Part shown: piece by piece, positions 6,995 through 35,810 of the stretch | Position numbering within the stretch: position 1 is the stretch's first letter | Layout: each line of letters begins with the position of its first letter | Origin: an uncultured Eubacteriales bacterium | GTDB taxonomy: Bacteria > Bacillota > Clostridia > Lachnospirales > Lachnospiraceae | Assembly: GCA_949294665.1 (NCBI GenBank) | Contig: CASFID010000025.1 | Coordinates: 111,771 to 175,770, forward strand | Direction: 5' to 3' | Length of the DNA: 64,000 bases | Notes under the pieces: model-generated | What the model was told of the DNA's origin: nothing | Databases searched by the model: none | The model's input: only the letters and a program-made list of their open reading frames with translations | Program-made: the position numbers and the translations under genes

Positions 6995-7017
6995 TTCTTC
7001 GTTGACAGATATAGACG

Positions 7018-7138
7018 GGAGCGTGACACGCTCCTGTAGAGAAGCAGACAAGGAAAGCCCTCGGCAGGGCGCAAAGGCACTTTTGATGGACGAAATCGGC
7101 TGTCAAAAGTGCTTTTGCGTTACTTTCGGGAAAGTAAC
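7018..7138. other. Hairpin cluster upstream of relaxase (candidate oriT)
   Basis: Four inverted repeats lie in 120 bases: GGAGCGTG/CACGCTCC (7018-7034), GCCC/GGGC (7057-7070), GCAAAGGCACTTTTGA/TCAAAAGTGCTTTTGC (7071-7086 with 7103-7118, one mismatch) and GTTACTTTC/GAAAGTAAC (7119-7138, perfect). MOBV relaxases act on hairpin-containing oriT sequences placed just before their gene, which is where this is. The nick site cannot be fixed from sequence alone. Confidence 0.6.
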
Positions 7139-7197
7139 AAAGCTTATGCGCCGTATCCGGCGCTGATTATCCAAAAACAGGGAGAAAGGACAGCTTA

Positions 7198-17699: not shown

Positions 17700-20114
17700 G
17701 TGCGAAGGGAGGGGACGGCGATCATAAGAGAGAAAAATGTGAGACTCAGAAAGGTGATGATCGATAAAACTGCCTGTATAGAATCCATGCTGGAGGAACA
17801 TCTTGCCGTCTGCCTGAGCAGTATGCCGGGAACGGGAAAGAAAACAGCAGTGAGGATCCTTCGCGAAAAACATCCCGAAGTGAATGCGGTCTACTGTTCT
17901 GCGGAAGAGATCGAGGATGGCAGCGCCATGGACAGGAGAAAGAAGGGCAGCGCCAACTGGTATCTGATCCGAAAGCCGCAGGGAGACCGGTATCCGGAGT
18001 CTTCCCGGGGATTCTGGGAATTTGTCAGAAACATGCCAAAGGAGGATCGGATCCTGCTGGCAGTGGATGGAAGGATGCCAGAGGGATTCCTGGAATTTAT
18101 CTGGAACGGGATCATGGCGGTGGTCATGCCGGAAAACTTCTGGTTCACAGAGGCAGAGACATACCGGTATCTAAAAGCGTGCCGGAGCCGCCTGAAATAC
18201 AGGGAAGTATACTACCTGACAGGAGGCTGGGCGGGGTGCATTGCCATGCTGGTCCGGCTTGAGAGGCAGCTGGGAGAGCACTGGAGCGCATGGGAGCTCT
18301 GCAGTCTATATGAGATCCGTGCGTATATCCGCGGCGAGATCTTGAATGTGCTGCCGGCGGATGAATTGAAGATGTTGAGTGAACGGGCGGCATATCCGTA
18401 TTTAAATGAGGAGCTGTGTTCTGTTCTCTGGGAAAACACGGACAGAAAGACGGAGGAAAACCTTTTTATCCGCGGAGCCATGGTCTATCTTCCGGGGAAA
18501 GAGGCATGGCATGTGCAGCCCGCGCTCCGTATGACAGTGAAGCAGGCAGCGCCGCCGGAGCTCTGCAGGAAAGCAATGGCGTGGTATGAAGCTCACGGCA
18601 GGATACAGGACGCGCTGATGTGCTGCTGGTATCTGCAGGATAGAGAGGCGTATGAAGAGTGCCTGATCAGGAATTATGACAAGATTCCTTTCCTGAATTA
18701 TGAGAAACCGCGGTGGAGTACGGAAAATCACAGGATGCCGGAATTGTTCTATATTGAGTGGATGGAGGCTTTTCTGCGCCGGGATGCTGCGGCGATGAAA
18801 CAGATGAGAGGGCGGCTGTCAAAGCTGCGGGAGGAGGCAGAACGGGAGAATAAAGGGAGAAAGATTACGGAGATCTTTCTGAACATTGCCTATACAGATC
18901 CGGAGATTTCGGCGAAAGAATGGATGGAGCTACTCCGGGAGGAGTCTGATCCGGGATGCCCGATCCGGCTGTATTTTATCCTGGGAGAATCCGTGTCCTA
19001 TCTGAGCGGGCTGAGAGATCTGTCGGATCTTTTCGCGTGTGGAAAAAAGGAAAGGAAGATGTGGCAGGAGCTGTGGGAAGAGCGTCTGGCGCCGGAAAAT
19101 CAGATCCCGTACCGGCTGGCGCGGATGGAGTATGATTTCCAGACGGACGCGGCTTCCGCACGCAGTGGAGGAGAACTTGCGGATATTCCGGAAGCGGAGC
19201 TGGAGACTCCATGGCAGATCCGCCTGGGGACGATGTATCTTGCCTATCTCTATGCGGACAGCAGGGAGTCCGGGGAACATGTGCGGAAATATATCCGGGA
19301 TCTGGCGGAGTCGCTGGACAGAGAGGAATCGCAGGTCTGCCGCTGGAATGCGCGGGCGCTTCTGTATCTTGCAGAGGCGAGATGGGGAGAGCGAGACGAT
19401 CTGATGCAATGGATCCGTGAGACGGGCGGGGATATTGAGAACGATGCCGGAAAGACTCGGTTCTATATGGCTGCCGAGGTGAAGGTGAACCTGTATCTGG
19501 GAAACTACGGATATGCGGAGAGCATACTGAAGGTGCTGATCCCGTATTTTACGAGAAACAGAAACCATCGATGGCTGGCAGAATCGCTCTTCCAGCGCGC
19601 GGTCATCCAGTGGGAAAGCGGCGAAAAGCTGCGCGCGATGGAAACAGCGGCGGAATCTCTGGAAGCTGCCGAGCCGTACCGGTATGTAAGAATCTATACC
19701 GGGTACGGAGCAAGGGGAGCAGAAGTCCTGGAAGAGTATAGAAACTGGCTGGAAAACACCCGCCCGCCGGATCTCCGGCGAAAGAAGCAGTATAAATACG
19801 GCAGTGTCCTGAATATGTCTTCGGAGGAATGGCTGGATTATATCATCAGAAGGGCGGCGAGACAGAAGAAGCATTACCCGAATCTTACAGAAGACCTGCA
19901 GAATATTTACCGGACAGAAAGGCTGACGGCGACAGAAGTGATCGTGCTGCGGTATCTGGAAGAGGGGTACAGCAACGCTGTGATCTGCGAGAAGATGAAT
20001 ATCAGACTGTCTACTGTCAAGAGCCATATCTATAACATTTTCAGAAAGCTGGGCGTGACGACACGTCTCCAGGCGGTGCAGAAAGCAAGGGAAACCGACA
20101 TTCTTCAGGGATGA
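17700..20114 (+). CDS. MalT/LuxR-type large transcriptional regulator
   Basis: The ~800-residue protein has a degenerate P-loop near its N-terminus (SMPGTGKKTAVRIL), a long helical TPR-like middle, and a C-terminal LuxR helix-turn-helix (LTATEVIVLRYLEEGYSNAV, then STVKSHIYNIFRKLGV). This is the plan of MalT-like STAND regulators. The start is uncertain: GTG 17700 gives the longest form, but GTG 17739 or ATG 17757 are equally plausible. It stands directly before the peptide-modification cluster on the same strand, separated by a terminator, and may regulate it; that link is inference. Confidence 0.82.
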   Translation: MRREGTAIIREKNVRLRKVMIDKTACIESMLEEHLAVCLSSMPGTGKKTAVRILREKHPEVNAVYCSAEEIEDGSAMDRRKKGSANWYLIRKPQGDRYPESSRGFWEFVRNMPKEDRILLAVDGRMPEGFLEFIWNGIMAVVMPENFWFTEAETYRYLKACRSRLKYREVYYLTGGWAGCIAMLVRLERQLGEHWSAWELCSLYEIRAYIRGEILNVLPADELKMLSERAAYPYLNEELCSVLWENTDRKTEENLFIRGAMVYLPGKEAWHVQPALRMTVKQAAPPELCRKAMAWYEAHGRIQDALMCCWYLQDREAYEECLIRNYDKIPFLNYEKPRWSTENHRMPELFYIEWMEAFLRRDAAAMKQMRGRLSKLREEAERENKGRKITEIFLNIAYTDPEISAKEWMELLREESDPGCPIRLYFILGESVSYLSGLRDLSDLFACGKKERKMWQELWEERLAPENQIPYRLARMEYDFQTDAASARSGGELADIPEAELETPWQIRLGTMYLAYLYADSRESGEHVRKYIRDLAESLDREESQVCRWNARALLYLAEARWGERDDLMQWIRETGGDIENDAGKTRFYMAAEVKVNLYLGNYGYAESILKVLIPYFTRNRNHRWLAESLFQRAVIQWESGEKLRAMETAAESLEAAEPYRYVRIYTGYGARGAEVLEEYRNWLENTRPPDLRRKKQYKYGSVLNMSSEEWLDYIIRRAARQKKHYPNLTEDLQNIYRTERLTATEVIVLRYLEEGYSNAVICEKMNIRLSTVKSHIYNIFRKLGVTTRLQAVQKARETDILQG

Positions 20115-20133
20115 GGAGAAGAGCGGAAAAACG

Positions 20134-20176
20134 GAAGGTTCTCTCATACTCAGGTATGAGGCGCCTTCTTTTTTTT
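20134..20176 (+). terminator. Intrinsic terminator after the LuxR-type gene
   Basis: GAAGG...CTCATAC (20134-20149) pairs with GTATGAG...CCTTC (20154-20168), followed by eight T. Confidence 0.88.
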
Positions 20177-20402
20177 CATGTTAACATGATCTTACTTCGA
20201 AGAACGGAAGAAAAAGACGGTTCCGCTGACCGTGGACCGGTAAAAAGCGGCAATTTCAGCCGGAATGGGATTTTCTGGAAGAAAAGACTGGAAATATATA
20301 ACAATACTAGTATAAAATACCATTGAGGGCAGCGATGCTCGAACTCATGCATGAAAAATATTATCAAGAGAAATAAAGAAACAGGAAAAGAGAAGGGTAC
20401 AT

Positions 20403-21656
20403 ATGGAAAAGCGTGCAATAAGTGAGAAGCTGCTGGAAGCGCTCCGCTGCTTCCTGAATGGTGAAAAAGTAATGTGGGAGGATGGGATTTCCGCCGAAGA
20501 CTGGCAGATGCTGTTCCGGCTCTGCCAGCATCATCAGATCCTGCCCATGATCTATGAGACGGTCTATGCCTGCCCGGCGTTTCAGACATGTCCGCAGGAC
20601 ACAGCGCAGATGGTCAAGACACAGGTCATCCGACAGGTTATGGTACAGAGCAGGAAGACAGAAGAATTCCTTCAATTATACAAGAAGCTTCTGGAACAGG
20701 ACTTAACTCCGCTCGTAGTAAAAGGGCTGGTCTGCAGAGAGCTGTACCGGGAGCCGGATTACCGCTGCTCCGGAGATGAGGACGTCCTTATCCCGGTGGA
20801 GCAGTTTAAAAAGTGCAGCGAGGTATTTTTCGCTGACGGAATGGATATGCTGGAACCGGATCAGAATCCGGACGAGGAGGGCGAAGTTCCATTCTATAAG
20901 GTGGGCGGACTGTTACATATTGAGCTTCACAAAGAGCTTTTCTCCTCCGAGTCGGAGGCTTACGGAGATCTGAACCGTCTGTTTGAGGGCGTCTTTGACA
21001 GGAAGATACAGGAGACGATACACGGTGTTCCGGTATATACGATGTGCCATACGGATCATCTGCTCTATCTGATCCTCCATGCATTCAAACATTTCCTTCA
21101 CAGCGGATTTGGTATCCGCCAGGTGTGCGATATTGTGATCTACGCCGAGGCGTTCGGAGGAGAGATCGACTGGGATGATCTGATGGAAAAATGTAAAGGG
21201 ATCCATGCGGATGTATTTGCCGCGTCTCTGTTCGATATCGGAAAAAAGGAGCTTACATTTGACCCGGTGAAGGCATGCTATCCGGAGGCATGGAGCTCTG
21301 TTGAAGTGGATGGAAGCGATCTGCTGGAAGATCTGCTGGACGGAGGCGTGTTCGGAGATTCAAGCATGAGCCGGAAGCACAGCAGCAACATCACGCTCCA
21401 GGCTGTGAGCGAGGACAAGAAGGGAAAGAAAGCAGGAGCTTCTCTCGCTCAGACATTGTTCCCTGACAGGAAATATATGGAGAGGACTTATACATATCTG
21501 AAAAAATATCCTTTCCTCCTTCCTGCCGCATGGGCGTCGAGGATCCTGAATTATCTGAAAGAATCGAAAAGCATGGGTGGGAACGACGCCATGGAAAGCA
21601 TCGAGATCGGGAATCACAGGGTAGATCTGATGAAGAAATATAAGATCATTCAGTAG
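20403..21656 (+). CDS. Nucleotidyltransferase-family protein (NTP_transf_5-like)
   Basis: The 417-residue protein shows the nucleotidyltransferase core VVKGLVCRELYREPDYRCSG followed by Asp125-Glu126-Asp127 (DEDVLIP), with metal-binding acids and a C-terminal helical half. Proteins of this family occur in lasso-peptide and other modified-peptide clusters, where they are thought to modify the peptide or a cofactor. AGAAGGG precedes the ATG. A weak promoter (TATAAA at 20311-20316) lies upstream. It heads a set of eight genes on one strand ending at 27996. Confidence 0.8.
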   Translation: MEKRAISEKLLEALRCFLNGEKVMWEDGISAEDWQMLFRLCQHHQILPMIYETVYACPAFQTCPQDTAQMVKTQVIRQVMVQSRKTEEFLQLYKKLLEQDLTPLVVKGLVCRELYREPDYRCSGDEDVLIPVEQFKKCSEVFFADGMDMLEPDQNPDEEGEVPFYKVGGLLHIELHKELFSSESEAYGDLNRLFEGVFDRKIQETIHGVPVYTMCHTDHLLYLILHAFKHFLHSGFGIRQVCDIVIYAEAFGGEIDWDDLMEKCKGIHADVFAASLFDIGKKELTFDPVKACYPEAWSSVEVDGSDLLEDLLDGGVFGDSSMSRKHSSNITLQAVSEDKKGKKAGASLAQTLFPDRKYMERTYTYLKKYPFLLPAAWASRILNYLKESKSMGGNDAMESIEIGNHRVDLMKKYKIIQ

Positions 21657-21750
21657 CAGGTCGCTTTTGGTCGAAAAAAGTCGAAAAATATAATTGTGAG
21701 AAAAATAGCGGGATAAGTGTGAAAAATAAGTTAAAATAAGTGGGGATTGC

Positions 21751-21881
21751 TTGATTTTCAAAAAACAAAGGGGTAAAATAACATAATAAAATATTTAATG
21801 CCTTTTGATTCTGTACATAAACAGTTGTTAAACGCCATTATATGAGATTCCAGGTCATTTAGTGCTTATCTTGAAAATCAA
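21751..21881. repeat. Inverted repeat upstream of precursor 1
   Basis: TTGATTTTCAA (21751-21761) and TTGAAAATCAA (21871-21881) are the ends of an AT-rich 131-bp stretch in the 292-base gap before the precursor gene. The second arm can also pair with CCTTTTGATT near 21801. It may be a regulatory structure or the trace of a small inserted element. Confidence 0.45.
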
Positions 21882-21948
21882 AGGCGATATATGATGTTTG
21901 GTCAAAATATTATTCAATAAGGCATAGGGAATGGAGGTATGCAGTATT

Positions 21949-22392
21949 ATGAAGAAGGAATGGGAAGCACCTAAATCAATTATTCAGAGATTTGATCCAA
22001 ATGAATATATTGCGGCATGCTATACGCTGGTTTGTGCAATTCCGGGACGTTCAGCAACAGAGATTGGTGACGGGACAGGAACAAGATATTTCGATGGTGC
22101 CGTCTGGTCACCTTGGGGAAGTTATACATTCTGGGATGGTAATCGCGTTTATGCAGACGGTCTTGCTCATGGTAACTGCGGTAATGAGTCCACATCTTAC
22201 GATGTTGATAATGGTATCGGATATGAACACAATAATGATGGTACAGTCAAGAATGCAGTAATAAGCAATGTGGATATCGGAAGCCATTTTTCAGGTAATA
22301 CTTACTATGCAACATGGCAGTCAAATAATGGTACGCTTTATACGCATTATGGCTTTGCAATCATGGACGCAAACAAACCGAATCATTCGTAA
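21949..22392 (+). CDS. Candidate RiPP-like precursor 1
   Basis: The start is ATG 21949, 11 bases after TGGAGG and giving the same leader layout as precursor 2; ATG 21931 is an alternative. The 147-residue product opens MKKEWEAPKSIIQRFDPNEY followed by IAAC, a short leader with the W-x-x-P...Q-x-F-x-x-NEY-x-AAC pattern. The rest (~123 residues) is rich in Gly, Asn, Thr, Tyr and Trp with only two more Cys (LVC, GNCG) and has no signal peptide. It is followed by a terminator. Its place among modification and export genes makes it the likely substrate; no modification can be predicted with confidence. Confidence 0.7.
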   Translation: MKKEWEAPKSIIQRFDPNEYIAACYTLVCAIPGRSATEIGDGTGTRYFDGAVWSPWGSYTFWDGNRVYADGLAHGNCGNESTSYDVDNGIGYEHNNDGTVKNAVISNVDIGSHFSGNTYYATWQSNNGTLYTHYGFAIMDANKPNHS

Positions 22393-22426
22393 CCCTGAGC
22401 TGAAAGTAAAATGCATAAAAATTCAG

Positions 22427-22462
22427 GCGGACTGAAAGACTTATTTTCAGTCTGCTTTTGTG
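22427..22462 (+). terminator. Terminator after precursor 1
   Basis: GCGGACTGAAA (22427-22437) pairs with TTTCAGTCTGC (22445-22455), then TTTTGTGTG. A partly leaky terminator after a precursor gene would give more precursor than enzyme message. Confidence 0.72.
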
Positions 22463-22623
22463 TGTAAGTCCTTTAGGGGCATATATTTCTGAGCAGACTA
22501 GCTAGGGATGGCTGTTAAGCTTTAGTGTTATGAAAAGTGTTAAAACGAGGTTAAATGATGGACGAATTTTCCATACTATACAAAAAATGTACATATTTCA
22601 TGAAAAAACTATGAGTTTAAGCA

Positions 22624-22651
22624 TTGACATTATAGTACATTGTGATATCAT
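22624..22651 (+). promoter_or_regulatory. Promoter of the PqqD-like gene
   Basis: TTGACA (22624-22629) and TATCAT (22646-22651) are 16 bp apart, and the -10 is extended by TGA. The enzymes therefore have a promoter of their own downstream of the precursor terminator. Confidence 0.62.
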
Positions 22652-22695
22652 AGTGGAGTGTATAAAGTGTATTAGAAAGATAACAGGGGAGGAAT

Positions 22696-23061
22696 ATGTT
22701 GGAGAGAAATGATCAGTCATCCGAAACGCTCTCCGGTTCCGAATCTCAGGAGCGTCTTCCGAAGGGAACAAAAGAGGAAAGCGTCAGGGTGTTTAGAGCG
22801 AACCCGGATTTCCTTCTGCGGGAAGTGGCTGGCGAAGCCGTGCTGGTGCCTGTAGGCGAAGCGGGTATATTTGAAAACAGCGTGATATCGCTGAATGAAA
22901 CCTGTAGTTTTCTGTGGAAACTGTTCCAGCAGCCGAGGACAGAGGAAGAGGTGATTGCTGAGGCGAGAAAAGAGTATTCTGATCCTGATTGCGAGATGGA
23001 ACAGGGAATCAAGGATTTCATAAGAGAATATTTGGAGTATGGTTTATTAAAGGAGGAGTAA
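22696..23061 (+). CDS. PqqD-like peptide carrier (RRE)
   Basis: The 121-residue protein contains the PqqD pattern: RANPDFLLREVAGEAVLVPV, then ENSVISLNETCSFLWKLFQQ, PRTEEEVIAE and a C-terminal helix ending LEYGLLKEE. PqqD domains bind precursor leaders and hand them to radical SAM or other enzymes. GGGGAGG precedes the ATG with a short gap. The stop lies in the ribosome binding site of precursor 2, coupling the two. Confidence 0.85.
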   Translation: MLERNDQSSETLSGSESQERLPKGTKEESVRVFRANPDFLLREVAGEAVLVPVGEAGIFENSVISLNETCSFLWKLFQQPRTEEEVIAEARKEYSDPDCEMEQGIKDFIREYLEYGLLKEE

Positions 23062-23067
23062 AGTAAG

Positions 23068-23481
23068 ATGGAAAGAAAAGTTTGGAGAAGACCGCTGACT
23101 AAGGTGCAGAAATTTGAGGCGAATGAGTATGTTGCGGCTTGTGGAGATAGTGGTACAACATATCTGTTTAATTGTAATGCGGGCGGTGGAGCACTTGCCG
23201 ATATATATCTTAATGATGGAACGAATTTGACGGATGGGAGCTGGCATTATTTTCACGCATGCCAGGAAAAACATGAGGCATCGTCTATGGACGATTTTCA
23301 GAAGGGATATATGTTGCTAAATGGAGGAAACGATGAGACAGGACACTGGGTTAGAAATGGTTTCTTGGACTGGGAGTATGTTCCTTATGAAAAAATACCT
23401 GTAATTATTTGGCAGGGAGATGGCGATATACATGCGACTACAACTTTAGACCAGAATGATTGGGAAACAGCAAAATCATAA
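23068..23481 (+). CDS. Candidate RiPP-like precursor 2
   Basis: The 137-residue product starts MERKVWRRPLTKVQKFEANE followed by YVAAC, the same leader as precursor 1 (25 against 24 residues to the Cys). The following ~112 residues differ entirely in sequence: Gly/Asn/Asp-rich with Trp and His and two further Cys (FNC, HAC). A conserved leader with unrelated cores is the mark of one maturation pathway acting on several substrates. AAAGGAGG from the end of the PqqD gene sets the start. Confidence 0.7.
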   Translation: MERKVWRRPLTKVQKFEANEYVAACGDSGTTYLFNCNAGGGALADIYLNDGTNLTDGSWHYFHACQEKHEASSMDDFQKGYMLLNGGNDETGHWVRNGFLDWEYVPYEKIPVIIWQGDGDIHATTTLDQNDWETAKS

Positions 23482-23502
23482 TAATTAATTACATAATCAG
23501 GC

Positions 23503-23527
23503 AAGACCGGAACAACCTTCCGGTCTA
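23503..23527 (+). terminator. Weak terminator after precursor 2
   Basis: AGACCGGAA and TTCCGGTCT form a 9-bp stem with a short loop, followed by ATTTTAATTT. Read-through into the radical SAM gene, 30 bases on, is likely. Confidence 0.65.
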
Positions 23528-23556
23528 TTTTAATTTCACCCGAAAGGAGACCACCT

Positions 23557-24693
23557 ATGGAACCATTACAAGACGCAACCACCGTCGAGCGCATGCTCCT
23601 CGCCCAGGCGAAGCAAACCCGCACCCCGGCAAACGGCAGTATCGAACTGCTTCCCCTCTGCAATATGAACTGCGACATGTGCTACGTGCGCTTAAGCAGG
23701 GAGGAGATGGAGCGGCAGGGGAGACTGCGCACCGCGGACGAGTGGCTGGAGATCGGACGGCAGATGAAGGATGCGGGAATCTTATTCTTGCTGTTGACAG
23801 GCGGGGAGCCGTTCCTGTATCCTGGTTTCAAGAGACTTTACCTCGGATTAAGGCAGATGGGGATGATCCTTACGATCAATACCAACGGGACGCTGATCGA
23901 CGAGGACCTGGCGGAGTTTTTCGGGAAATACAAGCCGAGACGGGTCAATATCACGCTTTATGGTACGGATGAGGAGACTTATGCAGAGCTCTGCCATTAT
24001 CCCGGCGGCTATGAGCGGACCCTTCGGGGGATCCGGCTGCTCCGTGAGCGGGGAGTGGATGTGAAGGTGGGCGGAAGCCTGACCCGGGCGAATAAGGGCG
24101 ATCTTGACAGACTGCTGGATGTTGAGAAAGAGCTGGGGATCCCGGTCAGGGTGGATACCTACATGATGCCTGCCACAAGGGAACGGGAGCTGCCCTATAA
24201 CATGCAGTCCCGTCTTGGCCCGGAGGAGGCGGCACGGGCAAGGATCCATGCCCTGAAGCGGGAGATGGGACCGGAGCTTTTCCCTCAGTATGTGCATCAG
24301 TCGGTGTACATGGCAGATCATCCGGAACCGGCTGAAAGCAAGCCGGGACATATGGCGTGCATGGCGGGACAGTGCTCCTTTACCATTAACTGGCAGGGGG
24401 AGATGCGCCCCTGCGTGATGCTGAGCGAGCCTGCGGTATCTGTGTTTGAAGCCGGCTTCGAGGATGCGTGGAAATACATCGTGGAGGAGACAGGGAAGCT
24501 CCTGTTGAATGCCAAGTGCAGTACGTGCCATCTGCGCCATCTCTGCCGCACCTGCGCGGCGAGCGCCCTTCTGGAGGCGGGAAGCTATGACGCCGTGCCG
24601 GAGTATATGTGCAGATATGCTGAGGAGTCTCTGAGATTATTGAGAGAAGAATGGGAGAAACTGCAGAATGGACAGGATATTTCAGATAGGTGA
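23557..24693 (+). CDS. Radical SAM/SPASM peptide-modifying enzyme
   Basis: The 378-residue protein has the radical SAM cluster motif C-x3-C-x2-C at Cys35, 39 and 42 (PLCNMNCDMCYVR), followed by LLTGGEPFLYPG. Its C-terminal SPASM region has cysteines in MACMAGQCSFTINWQG, MRPCVM, and CSTCHLRHLCRTCAAS, ending PEYMCRYAEE, enough for two auxiliary Fe-S clusters. Such enzymes form thioether, C-C or epimerised links in peptides. AAAGGAG precedes the ATG. It overlaps the next gene by 26 bases. Confidence 0.92.
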   Translation: MEPLQDATTVERMLLAQAKQTRTPANGSIELLPLCNMNCDMCYVRLSREEMERQGRLRTADEWLEIGRQMKDAGILFLLLTGGEPFLYPGFKRLYLGLRQMGMILTINTNGTLIDEDLAEFFGKYKPRRVNITLYGTDEETYAELCHYPGGYERTLRGIRLLRERGVDVKVGGSLTRANKGDLDRLLDVEKELGIPVRVDTYMMPATRERELPYNMQSRLGPEEAARARIHALKREMGPELFPQYVHQSVYMADHPEPAESKPGHMACMAGQCSFTINWQGEMRPCVMLSEPAVSVFEAGFEDAWKYIVEETGKLLLNAKCSTCHLRHLCRTCAASALLEAGSYDAVPEYMCRYAEESLRLLREEWEKLQNGQDISDR

Positions 24694-25585
24694 TTTCAGG
24701 TTCCGCATTTCTTATCCGGAGGAGGTCGCGCCCCCGGACAATTTCATGAAGTTTGAGTGCGGGGACTGCGCCGGGGCGGACAACGGACAGGGAGACTGCG
24801 GCAGCGTGGAATATGTTTACAATATTGAAGTCGCGGACAGCCTTCCGGTGCCGGAAGGAAAGGTCATCGCGCGGCGCCCGGATCTCGTTGTATTTCAGAA
24901 CGGGACAGATCAGAGCGCGGATGGCGGCGGACTGGGGCTGGAGAGCCGTCTCATCGGCGTGAAGGGAAATCCGAATTTTTATGCCTGCTACCGCGAGACG
25001 TCGGCAGACTCCGCAGAGATCACGCTTGCCGGCGACCGGATCAGGGAGCTGAACATTGATCCGATGTTCACTTCGCTTCTTGCGCTTGAGCGCCGTTTTG
25101 TGAAGCGGGATCAGATGATCCTGCACTGTGCGTATGTGGAATATCAGGGGGAAGCTATCCTCTTTTCCGCACCTTCAGAGACGGGGAAGACGACCCAGGC
25201 GAATCTGTGGGAGAAGTACAGAGGCAGCAGGACGGTCAACGGAGACCGCTCCCTTCTCGGGAAGGCCGGCGGGAGGTGGACGGCGCAGGGATGGCCGGTA
25301 TGCGGGACGTCAGAGGTGTGCAATAATGAGTCGGTCCCGATCGGAGCGGTCGTTATGCTGAGCCAGGAGCCGGAGAACCGGGCGGAGAGGCTGACGCCGG
25401 GACACGCTTTCCCGCTGCTGTACAGCCAGATCACTGTGAACAAGTGGAATATGCAGGATCATCTTCATACGATAGATCTGATCGAAGAGTTCCTTGGAAG
25501 CGTTCCGGTGCTCCATCTGGGATGTACGATCTCCGAGGAGGCGGTACGGTGCCTGGAGAAAGCCTTGCAGAATCTGGATGCTTGA
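24668..25585 (+). CDS. HPr-kinase-like P-loop protein of the peptide cluster
   Basis: The 305-residue protein has a P-loop APSETGKTT at 168-176 and further conserved parts VNGDRSLL and GWPVCGTSEVC, as in the HprK/PEP-carboxykinase-like kinases found in lasso-peptide and related clusters. There some phosphorylate the peptide C-terminus; here the substrate is unknown. It overlaps the radical SAM gene. The N-terminal ~150 residues are beta-rich and unassigned, with a Cys pair at FECGDCAG. Confidence 0.8.
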   Translation: MDRIFQIGDFRFRISYPEEVAPPDNFMKFECGDCAGADNGQGDCGSVEYVYNIEVADSLPVPEGKVIARRPDLVVFQNGTDQSADGGGLGLESRLIGVKGNPNFYACYRETSADSAEITLAGDRIRELNIDPMFTSLLALERRFVKRDQMILHCAYVEYQGEAILFSAPSETGKTTQANLWEKYRGSRTVNGDRSLLGKAGGRWTAQGWPVCGTSEVCNNESVPIGAVVMLSQEPENRAERLTPGHAFPLLYSQITVNKWNMQDHLHTIDLIEEFLGSVPVLHLGCTISEEAVRCLEKALQNLDA

Positions 25586-25707
25586 CGCTTCAGAAGGTTG
25601 CGGGTATACTGTTTTGAGAGCAAAAACGCCGGGCGAGAACAGCAGCGCTAATGGAAAAAGCAGCGTGAAACCAAGGGAACAGGTACTGTACGGACAGGAG
25701 TGATCAT

Positions 25708-27495
25708 ATGGAAGAAAATCAGAATGAAAATAAGAATCCCGCCTTTGAATCTTTGGATATTCTTATAGCCAGATGGAAGGACGGGACGTTCGGAGAGATC
25801 ATAGACGATTGGAAGTGGATCTTCAGCTACAGTGCGAGATACAAAGGCGCGATCGCCTTTTATGTGATACTCGGGATCTTCAGCACTTCAATGGGGCTTG
25901 TCAGCAGCGTGGCGAGTAAATATATGATCGATATCATCACAGGATATGAGACGAGCAAGCTGTGGGTCATGATCGCGGTCATGGTGGGGAGCACGGTGTT
26001 CAGCCTTGCGTTCAGCAGCATCATCAGCCGGATCACGGCGAAGCTGAGCATTGATATCAACAACGACATCCAGGCGGATATCTTCGACAAGATCGTGGAT
26101 GCGGACTGGCTGTCTCTGAACAAGTATTCAAACGGCGATATCCTGAACCGGTTTAACGGCGATATCGGGACCGTGAGCGGGAATGCGATCAGCTGGCTCC
26201 CGACGATCATCATTGCGATCTATAATTTTATCGCGACCTTCTTCGTGATCCTGCACTATGACTGGGTGATGGCGGTGATCGCGCTTGCCAGCGCGCCGTT
26301 CCTTCTCCTCATGTCGCGGTTCATGATCAAGAAGCAGAGAGACTACAGCAAGAAGGTCCGCGAGATGAGTTCGGACCTGATGACCTTCGAGGTGGAGGCA
26401 ATCTATAATTTCGATACGATCAAATCCTTCGGGGTAGCGCCGCACTACAGCAAAAAGATGCGCTGGTGGCAGGGAAAGTTCCGCGATATCAGCCTGAAAT
26501 ACAACCTGTTTTCCATTAAGACAAGCATTCTCATGACGATCCTGGGAACGCTGGTGCAGTTCGCCGCGTTCGGCTACTGCCTGTTCCGTCTGTGGACGGG
26601 GGATATTACATACGGGACCATGACGCTGTTCCTGCAGCAGAGGAGCAATCTCTCCTCCGCGTTCAGCAATGTCGTTTCCATTATCCCGTCCTTCCTGAAC
26701 AGTTCAGTGTCCGCGCACCGTATCCGCGAGCTGGTCCAGCTTCCGAGAGAGGTGCATATCCCTGAGAGCGGCGAGATGGATAAGTATGCCGATCAGGGCT
26801 TCGAGGTCAGGATGGAGGGCGTGAACTTTTCTTATGTGGAGGGAAACCGGGTGATCACAGATTCTTCCTTTGAGGCGAACCCAGGCGAGATCGTCGCTCT
26901 GGTAGGACCGTCCGGAGAGGGCAAGACGACGATGATCCGTCTCATCCTCGGGCTGGTGCGCCCGGAGAACGGCGAAGTTATGCTGCGGGCCGCCGGAGGA
27001 CAAGAGATCGTGATGAATGCGGAGACAAGGCATCTGTTCGCCTATGTTCCCCAGGGAAATACGATCCTGTCCGGAACGATCGCTGAAAATATGCGCATGG
27101 TAAAGGAAGACGCCACGGATGAGGAGATCATAGAGGCGCTGAAGATATCCTGTGCCTGGGATTTTGTAGAGAAGCTGCCGGAGACGATCAACAGTAATGT
27201 CGGCGAGCGGGGCAGGGGACTGTCGGAAGGCCAGGCGCAGCGTATCGCCATTGCAAGGGCGGTCTTAAGAGATTCTCCGATCCTTCTTCTGGACGAGGCG
27301 ACCTCGGCGCTGGATGTGACGACGGAGCGCACCGTGCTGCGCAACATCGTGCAGCAGCATCCGAACAAGACATGCATCGTGACCACTCACAGGCCGAGCG
27401 TGCTGAACCTCTGCCAGAGGGTATACCGCGTTATGGAGACCAAGGTGACAGAGCTCAGCGAGGAAGAATCCAGCCGCATGGCGATGGATTTCTGA
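25708..27495 (+). CDS. ABC exporter (fused membrane and ATPase domains)
   Basis: The 595-residue protein has about six transmembrane helices (~50-320) and a C-terminal ATPase with Walker A GPSGEGKTT, signature LSEGQAQRIAIARAV and Walker B ILLLDEATSALD. The N-terminus has no C39 peptidase domain, so leader removal must be done by another protein, probably the S26-type peptidase next to it. AGGAG precedes the ATG. It is the likely exporter of the modified peptides. Confidence 0.93.
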   Translation: MEENQNENKNPAFESLDILIARWKDGTFGEIIDDWKWIFSYSARYKGAIAFYVILGIFSTSMGLVSSVASKYMIDIITGYETSKLWVMIAVMVGSTVFSLAFSSIISRITAKLSIDINNDIQADIFDKIVDADWLSLNKYSNGDILNRFNGDIGTVSGNAISWLPTIIIAIYNFIATFFVILHYDWVMAVIALASAPFLLLMSRFMIKKQRDYSKKVREMSSDLMTFEVEAIYNFDTIKSFGVAPHYSKKMRWWQGKFRDISLKYNLFSIKTSILMTILGTLVQFAAFGYCLFRLWTGDITYGTMTLFLQQRSNLSSAFSNVVSIIPSFLNSSVSAHRIRELVQLPREVHIPESGEMDKYADQGFEVRMEGVNFSYVEGNRVITDSSFEANPGEIVALVGPSGEGKTTMIRLILGLVRPENGEVMLRAAGGQEIVMNAETRHLFAYVPQGNTILSGTIAENMRMVKEDATDEEIIEALKISCAWDFVEKLPETINSNVGERGRGLSEGQAQRIAIARAVLRDSPILLLDEATSALDVTTERTVLRNIVQQHPNKTCIVTTHRPSVLNLCQRVYRVMETKVTELSEEESSRMAMDF

Positions 27496-27531
27496 TCAGG
27501 CGTCCGGGACGGACAGTAAAGGAGACGTCGC

Positions 27532-27996
27532 ATGATAGAAAGAGTCGTTGATACAAGAGAATATGTATCTGTACTCCGGGAGATCGCGGAGGAGGGAAAG
27601 GTCGTATCTATGCTGATCGCAGGGAGCAGCATGGCGCCTTTCCTCTGCCATAACCGGGATTACATCTATTTTACAAAACCGGACCGCGAACTGAGGCGGG
27701 GCGATATGGTGTTCTACCGGCGGGATTCCGGCCAGTATGTGATGCACCGCATATACAGGAAGAAGCAGGACGGCTACTACATGGCCGGGGATGCGCAGAC
27801 AGAGATCGAGGGACCGCTGCGGCGGGATCAGATCTTTGCACTTGTCGTTAAGGTGAAGCGGAAGGGGAAGATCATCTGTCCCGGAGATTTCTGGTGGGAA
27901 TTCTTTGAGCATATATGGATCCGGATCATCCGTCTAAGACCGGTCATTTTAAAGATATATACGGTTTTTACAGGAATGACCGGCCGTGAAAGCTGA
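27532..27996 (+). CDS. S26-type peptidase with Ser/His dyad
   Basis: The 154-residue protein has the signal-peptidase box with Ser33 (IAGSSMAPFL), then LRRGDMVFYRR and His72 in YVMHRIY, where bacterial type I peptidases carry Lys; this Ser/His pair is that of SipW/SEC11-type enzymes. AGDAQTEIEG matches the conserved GD box. There is no N-terminal membrane anchor, but the C-terminus is hydrophobic (IRIIRLRPVILKIY). It closes the peptide cluster, with AAAGGAG before the ATG. It may cleave the shared leader near Ala-Ala-Cys. Confidence 0.82.
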   Translation: MIERVVDTREYVSVLREIAEEGKVVSMLIAGSSMAPFLCHNRDYIYFTKPDRELRRGDMVFYRRDSGQYVMHRIYRKKQDGYYMAGDAQTEIEGPLRRDQIFALVVKVKRKGKIICPGDFWWEFFEHIWIRIIRLRPVILKIYTVFTGMTGRES

Positions 27997-28040
27997 GAAC
28001 TGGTCAAGTTGTGAAAAATGGGGGAATCTTGCGGCAGGTG

Positions 28041-28069
28041 TTCCCAGCGATCTTGAAATGTGCTATAAT
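28041..28069 (+). promoter_or_regulatory. Promoter of the capsule regulatory genes
   Basis: TATAAT at 28064-28069 is extended by TGC, with TTCCCA at 28041-28046 at 17-bp spacing. It lies 43 bases before the CpsB-type gene. Confidence 0.6.
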
Positions 28070-28111
28070 AACAGGCTGTAGTTTGGGATTACATGATTTT
28101 GGGAAAGAGAT

Positions 28112-28888
28112 ATGATAGATATACATACACATATACTTCCGGGGCTGGACGACGGGGCGGCAGATATCTATGACAGTATAGAGATGGCGGCTCTGGCACA
28201 TGAGTACGGAACAAAGGCGATCGTGGCTACTCCGCACTGCAACATCCCGGGAATATATGGAAATTATTTCGGCAAAGAGTACTGCAGAGTTTTTAAGGAA
28301 ACGAAAGAGATCATACAGAGAGAGCAGCCGGGACTCCTTCTTCTGGCGGGTATGGAGGTCTATACTACAGAGGATGTGCCCGAGCTTCTTACAGATGGAA
28401 AGATATTTCCGATCAACAGGACGAGATATGTGCTGATGGAGTTTGATTTCGCTGAAGATCCGGATTTTGCAGACAGGATGCTCCGTCGGGTGCGGGAGGT
28501 GCGGGCGATACCGGTCGTCGCGCACGCCGAGCGGTATGAGTTTGTGCAGGATGCTCCGGAGATCGTATGGAACTGGAAGAAGATAGGGTGCGAGATACAG
28601 GTTAATAAGGGAAGCTTTCTGGGGCGGTTTGGAACAAGAGCGAGGAAGACGGCGTTTGAGCTTCTGAACCACAATCTTGTGACCGCGGTCGCAAGCGACG
28701 CCCACAGCCCGGTTCAGCGGACTACCTGTATGGCGGACGCATATGAGCATCTCCGGAAAGAATATTCCAGGGAGTATCTGGACGCATTGTTTCATGTAAA
28801 TCCGAGGAATATATGCAACGGCAGAAAACCGGTGCAGTTCAGGAAAATTCCGTTTGAAGAAGAATATGGCTGGAAGGAGCGGATATAA
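28112..28888 (+). CDS. CpsB/CapC-type tyrosine phosphatase
   Basis: The 258-residue PHP-fold protein starts MIDIHTHILPGLDDGAADIY and has ATPHCN, GMEVYTTED, VVAHAERY and ASDAHSP, the metal-binding set of CpsB/YwqE manganese-dependent phosphatases. It removes phosphate from the tyrosine-rich tails of the CpsD-type kinases, two of which follow in the same operon. It is cytosolic. Three bases separate it from the next gene. Confidence 0.95.
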   Translation: MIDIHTHILPGLDDGAADIYDSIEMAALAHEYGTKAIVATPHCNIPGIYGNYFGKEYCRVFKETKEIIQREQPGLLLLAGMEVYTTEDVPELLTDGKIFPINRTRYVLMEFDFAEDPDFADRMLRRVREVRAIPVVAHAERYEFVQDAPEIVWNWKKIGCEIQVNKGSFLGRFGTRARKTAFELLNHNLVTAVASDAHSPVQRTTCMADAYEHLRKEYSREYLDALFHVNPRNICNGRKPVQFRKIPFEEEYGWKERI

Positions 28889-28891
28889 ATA

Positions 28892-29755
28892 ATGAGAAGA
28901 ATCAGGCTTGCGGTCGTGGGGATATTTGTCCTGTCGCTGATCGCATTTATCGTGTTCAACATTGTCAACAGGGTCACGACGGACAGCACTCCGCCGGTGA
29001 TCACAAGCGAATCGGATACTGTTACTGTCAGTGTGGCGGCAGAGGAATCTGAGCTTCTTGCAGGGCTGACTGCGACAGATGACGAGGACGGAGATCTGAC
29101 CGGTGAGATCATGATCTCTTCCATGTCCAATTTTACTGAGCCGGGGAAACGCACGGTCAGCTACGTTGTGTTTGATGCTTCCAACAATGCATCGACCCTG
29201 ACGAGAAACCTGGAGTACACAGACTATACTGCTCCTCAGATCAAACTGACTCAGCCGCTTCGGTACGGCTTAAATGAGATGGAGGACGCCAGCCTTACAG
29301 AGAATATGAGTGTCCAGGACTGTCTGGACGGAGATATCACGCAGCAGATCCGGGCGACGTTCAATGACGGCGCCTATATTGCGATGGCAGGAGAATACGG
29401 CATAACGGTGCAGGTGAGCAACAGCGCGGGAGATACCTGTTCTGTCCCGCTCACAGTCACAGTTACGGATCCGGCAGAGGAAAGCGGGAAATACTATCCG
29501 ATGTTATCGGATTACATCGTCTATGCCCCTGTCGGCGGATATGTGGATCTGACGTCGCTCCTGATCGGGCTGGAGAACAGCTCGACACAGTATCTCTTCG
29601 CCGATGCCAATCCTTCTGCGCCCGGCGGGATTGAGAGCGTGGCGATCGGAGGCGCGGTCGACTATAACACACCGGGAACTTATACGGTGGATTATCAGTT
29701 TACCTCGGCGAGCGGTGTGACAGGGACGACAAAACTGGCAGTGGTAGTGGGGTAG
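28892..29755 (+). CDS. Membrane-anchored Ig-like (DUF5011) protein of the capsule locus
   Basis: The 287-residue protein has one N-terminal transmembrane anchor (VVGIFVLSLIAFIVFNIV) and then Ig-like repeats with TPPVITSESDTVTV, ATDDEDGDLTGEI and SYVVFDASNNAS, followed by a related unit from DYTAPQIKLT. DUF5011-type domains are extracellular modules. It lies between the phosphatase and kinase genes of the locus with 3- and 6-base gaps, so it probably works on the outside with the export machinery; its exact role is unknown. Confidence 0.8.
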   Translation: MRRIRLAVVGIFVLSLIAFIVFNIVNRVTTDSTPPVITSESDTVTVSVAAEESELLAGLTATDDEDGDLTGEIMISSMSNFTEPGKRTVSYVVFDASNNASTLTRNLEYTDYTAPQIKLTQPLRYGLNEMEDASLTENMSVQDCLDGDITQQIRATFNDGAYIAMAGEYGITVQVSNSAGDTCSVPLTVTVTDPAEESGKYYPMLSDYIVYAPVGGYVDLTSLLIGLENSSTQYLFADANPSAPGGIESVAIGGAVDYNTPGTYTVDYQFTSASGVTGTTKLAVVVG

Positions 29756-29761
29756 TGTAAA

Positions 29762-31204
29762 ATGGAAAAGACGACAGATCAGATGTTAGAGAATTATAAG
29801 ATAGAACCATTCACACTGGTGCACGACATCCTCGTGAACTGGTGGGTGATCCTGCTGGCTGCGGTCTCCGCGGCTATGATCGCTTTTGTCGGGGTAAGCG
29901 TGAGATGGGTCCCGCAGTATACGACGTCGACTACTTTTGTCGTACAGTCAAGAAATACTTCGGCGTCATACTCCTCTCTCAGCTCGGCAAATACGATGGC
30001 GACTACATTTCAGAAGATTGTTGAGAGCTCTGCGATGCAGGACATCCTGTGTACAAAGCTGGGAGTAGACCGGATCGATGCGGATATCCAGGCGAGTGTG
30101 GCAGAAGGAACAAACCTTCTGAATCTGAGTGTGACGGCGTCCACTCCGAAGGAAGCATTCGACGTCATGCAGGGGATCCTGGACAACTATTCCAGCATCA
30201 CGCTCTATACAGTGGGCGATATCGTGCTGACGGTCCTGCAGAGCCCGTCGGTGCCGTTCTCGCCGGATAACCCGCTCAATACGCGCGATGTGATGGAAAA
30301 AGCATTTCTCCTGGCAGCGGCGGCGATGATCCTGCTGTTCGGCTTCCTGTCCGTGCTCAAGGATACACTGAAGACAGAAGACGATGTGAAGGATAAGCTG
30401 GACGCACGGAGCCTGGGAGCGCTTTCCTATGAGTTCAAATACAAGACAGTCAGGGAACTTCTCCGGCATAGAAAGAAACCTCTTCTGATCAGCGATCCGC
30501 TGGCGGGATTCGGATTTGTAGAAAGCTACAGAAAATTCTCTGCCAGAGCAGAATACAGGATGGAGAAGGAAGGCTGGAAGACGGCTGCGGTCACAAGTGT
30601 TTCCGAGAATGAAGGAAAATCAACGGTGGCGGCCAATCTTGCCATCAGCCTGGCACAGAAGGATTACAAAGTCGTGCTGATCGACGGGGACCTGAGACGT
30701 CCTTCGCAGTTCCTTATTTTCGGGCTGCATCCGACAGAGGATAACGAACTCGGCGAATTCCTTAAAGCGGAGAAGGGAGAGTTCTCGCTGCTCATGGACA
30801 CCGAGATCCCGAACCTTTGTGTAATAGGAGGAAGAAACTGCTATTCTTCTTCAACGGATATCGTACAGAAGGAATTCACACGCGAATTCCTCAAAAAGTG
30901 CAGGGAATCGGCAGATTTTATCATAATCGACACACCGCCGACCGGCGTCCTGGGAGACGCCGAGATCTGGGGACAGTATGCGGATGCGGTACTGTTTGTG
31001 GAAAAGCAGAATTTTGTCCTGGCTGAGGATATCAATACAATGCTGGATAAGTTCCGCGCCCAGGGATCAAGGATCCTCGGGGTCGTCATGAACAGCGTTC
31101 AGTCGTTCGGCGGCATTGCGGGAGCGACCGTGGGAAGATATTCCGGACGGTACGGCGACTACGGTAACTATGGTAAGAGACAGAAGGAAAGCAAAGATGA
31201 GTGA
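29762..31204 (+). CDS. Fused CpsC-CpsD tyrosine kinase/chain-length regulator 1
   Basis: The 480-residue protein has a Wzz-type domain between transmembrane helices at ~28-48 and ~181-199, then a BY-kinase domain with Walker A SVSENEGKST (Lys286), Walker A' VVLIDGDLRRPS and Walker B IIIDTPPTG. The tail has tyrosines in GRYSGRYGDYGNYGK. It autophosphorylates there and sets polysaccharide length with the phosphatase. In most Firmicutes CpsC and CpsD are separate; here they are fused. The 3' end overlaps the next gene by 8 bases. Confidence 0.93.
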   Translation: MEKTTDQMLENYKIEPFTLVHDILVNWWVILLAAVSAAMIAFVGVSVRWVPQYTTSTTFVVQSRNTSASYSSLSSANTMATTFQKIVESSAMQDILCTKLGVDRIDADIQASVAEGTNLLNLSVTASTPKEAFDVMQGILDNYSSITLYTVGDIVLTVLQSPSVPFSPDNPLNTRDVMEKAFLLAAAAMILLFGFLSVLKDTLKTEDDVKDKLDARSLGALSYEFKYKTVRELLRHRKKPLLISDPLAGFGFVESYRKFSARAEYRMEKEGWKTAAVTSVSENEGKSTVAANLAISLAQKDYKVVLIDGDLRRPSQFLIFGLHPTEDNELGEFLKAEKGEFSLLMDTEIPNLCVIGGRNCYSSSTDIVQKEFTREFLKKCRESADFIIIDTPPTGVLGDAEIWGQYADAVLFVEKQNFVLAEDINTMLDKFRAQGSRILGVVMNSVQSFGGIAGATVGRYSGRYGDYGNYGKRQKESKDE

Positions 31205-32705
31205 GAACAGAGAAGCATCAGAAAACATAAAGATTGACGAAACGGAAAAAATAGATATCATGGGTCTTGTGTCAGCCTTCCTGAACGGATTGAGAAGGCT
31301 GTGGGTCCTGCTGCTGGTGATCGTGATCGTGTGTACACTCCGGTCGTATTTTTCAACCAGCTTTTCCTATACGCCGCAGTATGTAGCGTCAGCTACGGTA
31401 TCAGTCACTACGCCCGGGGAGTCCTATACAAATATCCAGTCTGCCCAGGAGATGGCAGAGATGTTCCCATATGTCCTGACAAGCGGTGTGCTCCGCGAAG
31501 TGATCCAGAATGATATGGGGCTCGATTATCTGCCGGGACAGATCAGCGTGGATGCGGAAGAAGGAATGAATATGCTGACGATATCGGTATCCTCCGACGA
31601 TCCTCAGATGGCTTATAATATCCTTCAGTCTGTGATCAAGAATTACCCGGAGGTAGCGGAGTATATCTTCGGAGAGACACAGCTCCAGATCCTTGACGAG
31701 ACCGGAATACCGTCGGATACACAGGAAGAGATCGTGATACGGGGCTCCTACAGGAGGGGCGCCCTGCAGGGACTCATCGTAAGCGCTGTGATCCTCTGCC
31801 TGTATGTATTCCTGAAGCGGACGGTCCGTACAAAAGAGCAGTTGAAGAAGCGGATCAATATCAGGGATCTGGGGAGTCTGCCCTATGTAAGACAGAAGAA
31901 AAGAAAAAATGCCGAGAATAATAATATCAATATCCTGAACGAGCGGATCGTGCCGGTCTATGAGGAGGCAATACGCCGCCTCAGGATACGGATCATGCGG
32001 GAAGCAGAAATGAAGAACGCGAAAGTGATCATGGTGACCAGCTCCGTGCCCGGAGAGGGAAAGACGACCGTGGCTGTGAACCTTGCGGTCGCGATCGCAA
32101 AACAGAAGAAATCCGTGATCCTTGTCGACTGCGATATGAGAAATCCTTCTGTGGCGCAGATGATGCACCATGACGAGACGCATCCGGGACTGGCCTCAGT
32201 CCTCAAGGACGAGACTACGCTGCAGAACGCACTCACGGACGCAGGGATCCCGGATGCGGAAATGCGCATCATGTACGGAGGGGCGGCGGATTCAGAGGAT
32301 ACAGCGCTCCTCGGCTCAAGAAAGATGGGAGAGGTCATCGAAGAACTTAAGGGAAAGGCAGACTATGTGATCCTCGATACAGCTCCGGCGGAGCTTCTGG
32401 TAGACGCCTCCCTTCTTGCAAAATATGTAGACGCCGCACTGTATGTGATCCGATGCGACTATACGAAGATGAATAAGATCAGGGGCGGGATCGAGACGCT
32501 TGCTTCGCGCAGGCTGGATATCCTGGGATTCGTTTTCAACGGGGATCTTAATAAGAAAGAAAGCCGATACGGCTACGGATATGGCTACGGCTACGGTTAC
32601 GGACGGTACGGCGGCTATGGCCGGTACAGCCGCTATTCGAGATATGGCAGGCTGAAAGATACCGGAAAGCGGGAGGATGAATCAGGACGCGTGATCAAAG
32701 AGTAG
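31197..32705 (+). CDS. Fused CpsC-CpsD tyrosine kinase/chain-length regulator 2
   Basis: The ATG at 31197 follows AAGGAAAG and gives 502 residues; earlier in-frame codons lie inside the preceding gene. It has the same plan: transmembrane helix WVLLLVIVIVCTL, Wzz domain, second helix, BY-kinase with SSVPGEGKTTVAVN, VILVDCDMRNPS and VILDTAPAELL. The tail is a run of Gly-Tyr repeats (YGYGYGYGYGYGRYGGYG) with about a dozen tyrosines. It overlaps kinase 1, so they are made together and may form mixed rings. Confidence 0.93.
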   Translation: MSENREASENIKIDETEKIDIMGLVSAFLNGLRRLWVLLLVIVIVCTLRSYFSTSFSYTPQYVASATVSVTTPGESYTNIQSAQEMAEMFPYVLTSGVLREVIQNDMGLDYLPGQISVDAEEGMNMLTISVSSDDPQMAYNILQSVIKNYPEVAEYIFGETQLQILDETGIPSDTQEEIVIRGSYRRGALQGLIVSAVILCLYVFLKRTVRTKEQLKKRINIRDLGSLPYVRQKKRKNAENNNINILNERIVPVYEEAIRRLRIRIMREAEMKNAKVIMVTSSVPGEGKTTVAVNLAVAIAKQKKSVILVDCDMRNPSVAQMMHHDETHPGLASVLKDETTLQNALTDAGIPDAEMRIMYGGAADSEDTALLGSRKMGEVIEELKGKADYVILDTAPAELLVDASLLAKYVDAALYVIRCDYTKMNKIRGGIETLASRRLDILGFVFNGDLNKKESRYGYGYGYGYGYGRYGGYGRYSRYSRYGRLKDTGKREDESGRVIKE

Positions 32706-35706: not shown

Positions 35707-35748
35707 ACTCTGACCTCCTCTCAATGTATGTTGTGTTTTCATCTTACA

Positions 35749-35807
35749 ATAAAAAAAAGAGTTTACAACAAATGCCGTAAAAAAATTACGGTATTTGCCA
35801 TAAACTC
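35749..35807 (-). terminator. Intrinsic terminator between the two ATPase genes
   Basis: AGAGTTTACAACAAATGCCG (from 35758) pairs with CGGTATTTGCCATAAACTCT (to 35807) with an A/T loop. On the minus strand it is followed by eight T, so it ends the upstream ATPase gene and separates it from the defence pair. Confidence 0.82.
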
Positions 35808-35810
35808 TGA

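Follow-up and report, generated by a model that had tools for sequence, protein, structure and literature searches.

The locus at positions 20403-27996 of a 64,000-nt stretch of contig CASFID010000025.1, from an uncultured Eubacteriales bacterium (assembly GCA_949294665.1; the whole stretch is called the window below), is a real and widespread radical S-adenosylmethionine (SAM) variant of a system resembling those that make linear polyphosphorylated peptides (LPP). With a probability of about two in three, we consider it a maturation locus of the type that produces ribosomally synthesized and post-translationally modified peptides (RiPPs), working like the LPP and phosphorylated lasso peptide systems and adding to them radical SAM enzymes and protein-sized cores. 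We file it as a member of neither family, since defining features of each were looked for and not found. It would seem to represent a large-protein branch of a family of peptides known since 2026. This reading draws on gene content, conservation, co-occurrence, a C-terminal serine rule and an association of radical SAM lineage with core type, all observed directly; the individual chemical steps are proposals. A sequence-only reading of the same DNA had already proposed that two large precursors, a PqqD carrier and a radical SAM/SPASM enzyme form a modified-peptide system here, and this proposal is well supported by the results below. In this locus the chemistry of radical SAM peptides meets a likely phosphorylation at the C-terminus and a capsule setting.

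In the proposed order of events, the PqqD-type protein, a discrete RiPP recognition element (RRE), would bind the [W/Y]xxP leader, and the core would be modified by the radical SAM/SPASM enzyme. The HprK-like kinase would then phosphorylate the C-terminal Ser, which is common, together with the leader, to different core types; we infer this step by analogy with paeninodin-type lasso peptides. The NTP_transf_5 protein would probably decorate the Ser phosphate with a hexose or a nucleotide, as reported for PsmN. Finally, the SipW-like S26 peptidase would cut the leader near NEY/VAA-C and the MsbA-like ATP-binding cassette (ABC) exporter would export products of about 113-124 AA, of which one or more are predicted to fold. 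The product would probably act at the cell surface or in the exopolysaccharide (EPS) layer of the adjoining genes.

To obtain relatives, genome contigs were scanned by profile, with the radical SAM alignment (A1) comprising 15 sequences, window included. The 75 related loci (L039-L113), which represent the best 80 of 118 radical SAM relatives and to which all counts out of 75 refer, come from Lachnospiraceae genera, Oscillospiraceae, Erysipelotrichaceae and many unplaced Clostridia; the system is present in many gut Clostridia and some Erysipelotrichaceae. With a profile made of the leader only, 69 of these loci yielded a precursor somewhere in their fetched stretch, and the shared leader therefore exceeds chance. 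Two of the other six loci have their radical SAM gene at a contig edge (L063, L092), and four (L056, L065, L072, L079) showed no recognisable precursor. The two main precursor families, aligned as A3 and A4 with 39 rows each and both built from radical SAM-selected loci, could be aligned with each other over 37 N-terminal columns only (the leader and the first residues behind the conserved Cys), at a probability of 99.1%. The shared leaders ascribed earlier to both precursors are thus real.

Within 295 related genomes, the window's own included, a radical SAM protein at E<=1e-80 was found in 20 and an A3 or A4 precursor match in 17, with 16 genomes in both sets; these numbers were counted per genome, and precursors remote from a radical SAM gene could be under-seen, A3 and A4 being derived from radical SAM-selected loci. 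In the 17th precursor genome (G017) a more distant radical SAM gene adjoins the precursor. Precursors are thus not found mostly apart from the PqqD and radical SAM genes, the pattern named in the sequence-only reading as the one that would speak against it. Four radical SAM genomes lacked a precursor match (G022, G028, G102, G204), and three of them have a shorter precursor-like open reading frame (ORF) in the regions inspected. A search with precursor 2 as the single query gave matches at E<=0.01 in 10 of 99 genomes; the one match in G017 that scored above its true precursor is a 1108-AA frame that looks spurious. Leader-like matches outside any cluster inspected, at G003:C14:2741-2821 and G127:C6:41936-42010, may be orphan precursors.

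A further regularity lies at the other end of the precursors. We picked 99 distinct precursors by the leader hidden Markov model alone, the terminal residue playing no part in the selection, and 96 of them end in Ser, as compared with 9 of 384 other complete cluster proteins of the same loci (not deduplicated); the 99 are related sequences and do not stand for 99 independent events. Two of the three exceptions (L103, L111) appear frame-broken, and the third (L054, ending in SSI) belongs to a distant type. The endings are otherwise diverse (AKS, NRS, NHS, NAS, DKS, TRS, QLS, TPS, AWS, NFS and others), and the last Ser is invariant in A3 and in A4 although the two families align at the N-terminus only. 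Leader and terminal Ser together give a simple sequence rule that would predict a phosphorylation site in proteins with non-alignable cores. The near-invariant Ser, the linkage to EPS and capsule genes and the predicted folding of a core are new beyond the sequence-only reading.

The window leader follows the pattern WxxP...NEYVAAC. Upstream of the conserved Cys, 97 of 99 precursors carry V, I or C at position -3 and 98 of 99 carry A, V, G, S or T at position -1, residues of the kind preferred there by signal peptidases. Counted by eye in the [W/Y]xxP register, an LPP-type cut would fall after NEY and not after VAA. Both places, after NEY and after VAA, are candidate sites for removal of the leader. 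The peptidase itself has S33, H72 and D87 invariant in 34/34 sequences, window included; a PDB sequence search with it gave nothing useful.

Downstream (3′) of the cluster lie genes for CpsB, an Ig-like membrane protein and Wzz/BY-kinase proteins, followed by Polysacc_synt_2, DegT, Bac_transf and EpsG genes. CpsB recurs in 30/75 related loci, the Ig-like family in 33/75 and Wzz/BY-kinase in 32/75. At least one of the three was found in 36/75 loci; among the 39 loci with complete flanks the number is 23, and the order of the genes differs between loci. A functional tie of the precursor system to the EPS locus is likely. The LPP authors raised a surface or capsule role as well and left it untested (PMC13381572). 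It may even be imagined that the radical SAM-modified folded domain is phosphorylated on its terminal Ser, that the nucleotidyltransferase joins the phosphate to a sugar or to the polymer encoded next door, and that the exported domains become tethered to the capsule as protein-exopolysaccharide conjugates. We regard this extension as unlikely; if true, it would be a general way of displaying interchangeable domains on a polysaccharide. As a separate observation, the EPS locus contains, on the minus strand at window 33801-36602, after the Wzz/BY-kinase genes and before the sugar genes begin, two genes with matches to the PADLOC defence candidate PDC-M12 (A, 4.7e-145; B, 7.3e-75) and a third, partly similar gene.

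Results for the cores bear on the possibility of an ordinary small bacteriocin, in which the large core would be trimmed further to a short antimicrobial peptide. For precursor 1, the most likely start is the ATG at 21949 behind GGAGG, not the ORF opening at 21931, which gives 147 AA; its row in the alignments begins at 21946 and is one residue too long. Counted from the Cys, the products measure 124 residues (precursor 1) and 113 residues (precursor 2) in the window, with a median of 114 for the 99 precursors, and 82 of the 99 cores hold 3-4 Cys. For comparison, sactipeptides and ranthipeptides are marked by thioether bonds that radical SAM enzymes form on Cys. Neither precursor matched a family in Pfam, NCBIfam or PADLOC; when the 39 members of each main family were scanned, the Pfam matches for A4 were stray and confined to single members, and NCBIfam gave none for A3. 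Modeling of precursor 2 with AlphaFold2 gave a mean predicted local distance difference test (pLDDT) score of 82.6, with 74 of 137 residues at >=90 and a mean below 60 over residues 1-30, which include the low-confidence leader. The model is rich in beta strands with one short helix, and the core is confidently predicted as a domain for which we claim no fold further than beta-rich. Foldseek comparison with the PDB gave no significant match (best E 0.72, with CnaB/SpyCatcher-like chains on top). The model of precursor 1 was poor (pLDDT 65.4), also with no significant match in the PDB (best E 1.0). PqqD/radical SAM clusters often produce short RiPPs, and the several core types per genome resemble diversification, both as expected of a bacteriocin. 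Against it stand the invariant core residues of A3 and A4, among them Cys, His and Trp, which are spread over the full length up to and including the last residue, as well as the predicted domain of precursor 2 and the EPS linkage. We therefore give the bacteriocin a small chance only.

Phosphorylated lasso peptides offer a precedent for the proposed kinase step. PadeK, ThcoK and PsmK phosphorylate the C-terminal Ser of lasso peptides, and PsmN adds hexoses to it (PMC9266682). We searched 299 genomes of the phylum and found five lasso clusters above the model cut-off, in which six lasso precursors were recognised, selected with no demand for Ser; all six end in Ser. L164, L165, L166 and L168 hold one each, and two are in L179, the wider stretch of L167; three other ORFs (one in L167, two in L168) were removed by eye as having no lasso-like sequence. 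The window-type nucleotidyltransferase profile matched the nucleotidyltransferases of three of the five clusters (E 6.5e-17 to 2.8e-23) and one that is cut short in a fourth. The paeninodin type thus shares with the window a C-terminal Ser with an HprK-like kinase, a homologous nucleotidyltransferase, and a WxxP leader with a discrete RRE. The link to lasso clusters through the nucleotidyltransferase and the HprK-like protein, suggested before, was right. The window differs in having an S26 peptidase and a radical SAM enzyme instead of the macrolactam cyclase and B2 cysteine peptidase, neither of which was found by Pfam scan among the ten genes at 17700-28888. The lasso precursors found here are 41-46 AA as a whole, whereas the window cores are much longer.

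The kinase is identified as HprK-like because its P-loop, His and Asp motifs are present, with H153, K174 and D193 invariant in 54/54 sequences, window included. It gave no Pfam match at E<=1, and in NCBIfam matched ScmC and HprK_rel_A far below cut-off. The C-terminal Ser could alternatively stay unmodified and serve the ABC transporter or the peptidase as a signal for export or docking, given that several loci likewise use a single ABC gene and a single S26 gene for more than one core type. In similar gene company, however, the terminal Ser is the phospho-acceptor of paeninodin-type lasso clusters (PMC9266682), and the five lasso clusters found here follow the same Ser rule. We consider an unmodified signal quite improbable.

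Phosphorylation by the kinase was also weighed against the radical SAM/SPASM enzyme acting itself on the C-terminal Ser, for instance by oxidation, with the HprK-like protein acting elsewhere. Ser oxidation of this kind is an anaerobic sulfatase maturase activity, and SPASM enzymes can target Ser or Cys; the invariance of the terminal Ser in A3 and A4 would also suit such a role. The window enzyme gave a SPASM match below cut-off (0.0058, Pfam), and its cysteines C35/C39/C42, C268, C286, C321, C324, C330, C333 and C352 are invariant in 15/15 A1 sequences, window included. On a tree of 71 radical SAM proteins, 10 changes suffice to explain the core type, for which the C-terminal residues served as label, as compared with a mean of 30.7 for shuffled labels and with 0/200 shuffles as low, a result to which near-copies contribute. 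The radical SAM lineage thus tends to follow core type. In nine loci (L039, L040, L043, L044, L046, L059, L067, L070, L099) two core types and two radical SAM genes occur with a single HprK-like gene in the fetched stretch; L044 has another HprK-like gene just past its stretch (L089), and L074 was left out on account of a second, more distant HprK-like gene. Since the lineages tend to follow core type and two core types share one kinase, we infer that radical SAM enzymes tend to read the cores, and that kinase, peptidase and exporter read the leader and the terminal Ser. The tendency of the radical SAM enzymes to track core type, whereas the Ser is common to types that share one kinase, makes their action on the Ser very unlikely, as does the direct published precedent for a kinase acting on a C-terminal Ser (PMC9266682). 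The same tendency makes the chemistry directly testable. Two other roles were considered and rejected. A PQQ or mycofactocin cofactor pathway does not fit, the radical SAM protein scoring 51 bits of the 381 needed for PqqE and 60 of 265 for mycofactocin. As to antiphage defence, the PADLOC matches of the radical SAM (viperin) and ABC proteins were weak, partial and at superfamily level, and precursors and kinase had none.

Among the systems closest to the proposed RiPP-type locus is LPP, described in May 2026 by Popov et al. (PMC13381572). Its genes encode the SipW-like LppS, the RRE LppB, the kinase LppK, the transferase LppN and the exporter LppD, inside capsular loci; Ser3 of the core is phosphorylated by LppK and the leader is removed by LppS with LppB (PMC13381572). 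The terms 'radical SAM', 'rSAM' and 'SPASM' are absent from the main text of that paper (PMC13381572). Shared with the window are the SipW-like S26 peptidase, discrete RRE, HprK-like kinase, NTP transferase, MsbA-like exporter and capsular polysaccharide locus, and also the [W/Y]xxP leader, precursors within 35-200 AA and variable C-termini. All five LPP core genes and a precursor were found in the fetched stretch of 16/75 related loci. The S26 Ser-His spacing of 39 equals that of LppS (S29-H68), while D87 lies 15 residues after the His and LppS D93 lies 25 after its own, so that the correspondence of the Asp is uncertain. Only the window has the radical SAM/SPASM enzyme, the WxxP...NEYVAAC leader, the near-invariant C-terminal Ser and cores of >100 AA with a predicted fold; only LPP has the leader YxxPxVLxHQxIxFETxxS and the conserved Ser3. 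Compared by eye, the two leaders correspond only in [W/Y]xxP and in the E two residues before the LPP cut. The pattern [YW]xxP-9-[FY]E[TS]xxS had no match in the window, and no conserved Ser stands at the LPP Ser3 place in A3 or A4. The kinase signatures differ as well. The five lasso clusters have SDD or TDD, the LPP-type clusters of L175, L176 and L177 have SDE, and the window (NGDR) and two other radical SAM-type modules have GD with no second acidic residue behind. In two Bacillota genomes (L175, L176) a radical SAM-type module adjoins a FETxxS-type module that is distinct from it and possesses a PqqD, a kinase and a peptidase of its own. A plain LPP family member with an incidental radical SAM gene, in agreement with the identical core gene set and capsule setting, is very unlikely in view of the absent FETxxS motif and Ser3, the NGDR versus SDE signatures, the tie of radical SAM to precursor in co-occurrence and on the tree, and the side-by-side modules of L175 and L176. 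These modules (L175 2872-11902, L176 6221-13219) place the radical SAM type next to FETxxS precursors, and L175, with its lasso cluster, holds three related systems in about 9 kb.

The sequence-only reading had found no named RiPP family for the locus. This is only partly right: apart from the radical SAM gene, the gene set is the LPP core set (PMC13381572). SynChlorMet (Scm) and HPr-rel-A cassettes gave NCBIfam matches for the PqqD, HprK-like and radical SAM proteins, all sub-threshold and far below the curated cut-offs; no NCBIfam model matched the precursors. Our literature search, with preprints and most subscription journals outside its scope, returned no paper in which an HprK-like kinase, radical SAM and RiPP precursors are joined in a single system, and the supplements of PMC13381572 may list such loci. 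In a 2014 mining paper the three terms all occur, and an HPr kinase is mentioned for lasso clusters (PMC4289311).

Several results weigh against the RiPP-type reading with a leader- and Ser-directed kinase. Of the His-Lys-Asp-Asp set of paeninodin kinases, the window kinase has His, Lys and one Asp; where the canonical DD pair has its first Asp, 54/54 sequences have Gly. Compared with housekeeping HprK profiles, the kinase reached E=0.001 in one comparison at 21.6% probability (broader set, looser settings) and gave no meaningful profile alignment with a narrower set, and its profile found nothing useful in the PDB (1ko7, an HPr kinase, only at E=0.29). LppN was inactive in the published heterologous host (PMC13381572). 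The nucleotidyltransferase is present in 28/75 and the S26 peptidase in 33/75 related loci, many of them on short contigs, and 16 of the 39 full-flank loci have no EPS marker. The Ser rule loosens with distance: in distant HprK/radical SAM loci, Ser is the last residue of 8 of the 11 plausible precursors, the others having T, L or W there. This distant set consists of 20 regions chosen by us, by HprK similarity, among the matches listed; 14 ORFs passed and 11 were kept, from 11 of the 20 regions, after removal by eye of three with no leader features (the second ORF of L190, L193 and the second ORF of L194), and L180 and L191 are near-copies. Two 57-AA Bacillota precursors end in Ser and in Thr, respectively. 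On the radical SAM tree, the NHS group is weakly clustered (5 changes, 9/500 shuffles as low), and of the 24 loci holding at least two precursors, 11 have fewer radical SAM genes than precursors in the fetched stretch. In the window, as in L048, two precursors occur with a single radical SAM gene, and the 308-bp gap after precursor 1 and before PqqD held no remnant of a second radical SAM or PqqD gene (tblastn of 214 proteins, best E 0.086).

The eight ORFs of the locus, claimed before to lie on one strand, are present, each intact and on the plus strand by ORF and sequence reading (Table 1). The exporter matched ABC_membrane and ABC_tran in Pfam with no C39 domain, as read earlier, and its top NCBIfam matches were MsbA_rel and MsbA_lipidA, below cut-off.

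Table 1. Features of the locus and of the adjoining EPS genes (window coordinates).
Feature	Position	Strand	Remarks
NTP_transf_5 nucleotidyltransferase (LppN/PsmN-like)	20403..21656	+	PF14907 2.4e-50
Precursor 1, 147 AA	21949..22392	+	Leader to about 22017; conserved Cys codon 22018-22020; C-terminal Ser codon 22387-22389
Terminator-like hairpin 3′ of precursor 1	22425..22457	+	14 pairs, T-rich tail; consensus match only, with 7.9 sites of this kind in the shuffled region
Promoter-like site upstream of PqqD	22624..22651	+	TTGACA-16-TATCAT, extended -10; 11/12 matches; consensus match only
PqqD-type discrete RRE, putative leader-binding carrier	22696..23061	+	PF05402 6.5e-12
Precursor 2, 137 AA	23068..23481	+	Leader residues 1-24; Cys25 codon 23140-23142; C-terminal Ser137 codon 23476-23478
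Predicted beta-rich core of precursor 2	residues 31-125	+	AlphaFold2
Terminator-like hairpin, gap between precursor 2 and radical SAM gene	23504..23526	+	Consensus match only
Radical SAM/SPASM maturase	23557..24693	+	PF04055 2.8e-27; CxxxCxxC at C35/C39/C42
HprK-like kinase (H153, P-loop K174, D193)	24668..25585	+	Start overlaps radical SAM end; no Pfam match
MsbA-like ABC exporter without C39 peptidase domain	25708..27495	+	PF00664 and PF00005
SipW/archaeal-type S26 leader peptidase (S33, H72, D87)	27532..27996	+	PF00717 3.1e-05; TIGR02228 below cut-off
CpsB/CapC phosphatase, first gene of adjoining EPS/capsule locus	28112..28888	+	PF19567 2.9e-56
Membrane Ig-like protein and two Wzz/BY-kinase-like proteins, EPS locus	28892..32705	+	PF16403 3.5e-19; Wzz, AAA_31

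Two further clusters were found in the window's own genome, on contig C23. A paralogous cluster on this contig (L025 7474-10137) has an 82-AA precursor ending in SFS, a PqqD gene, an HprK-like gene and a distant radical SAM gene, and precursors of similar size, several with a CYH motif, were found in distant loci. In L035 (6576-7435) a leader and part of a core are fused in frame to the second half of a radical SAM protein, as if the cluster had decayed by deletion. Upstream of the window cluster, at 17700-20114, lies a LuxR/MalT-type regulator, a homologue of which stands upstream of the nucleotidyltransferase gene in 11/75 related loci. Still further upstream, a tyrosine integrase, an AAA_25 protein and a Mob_Pre recombinase (window 4043-8508) suggest a mobilisable element about 12 kb away.

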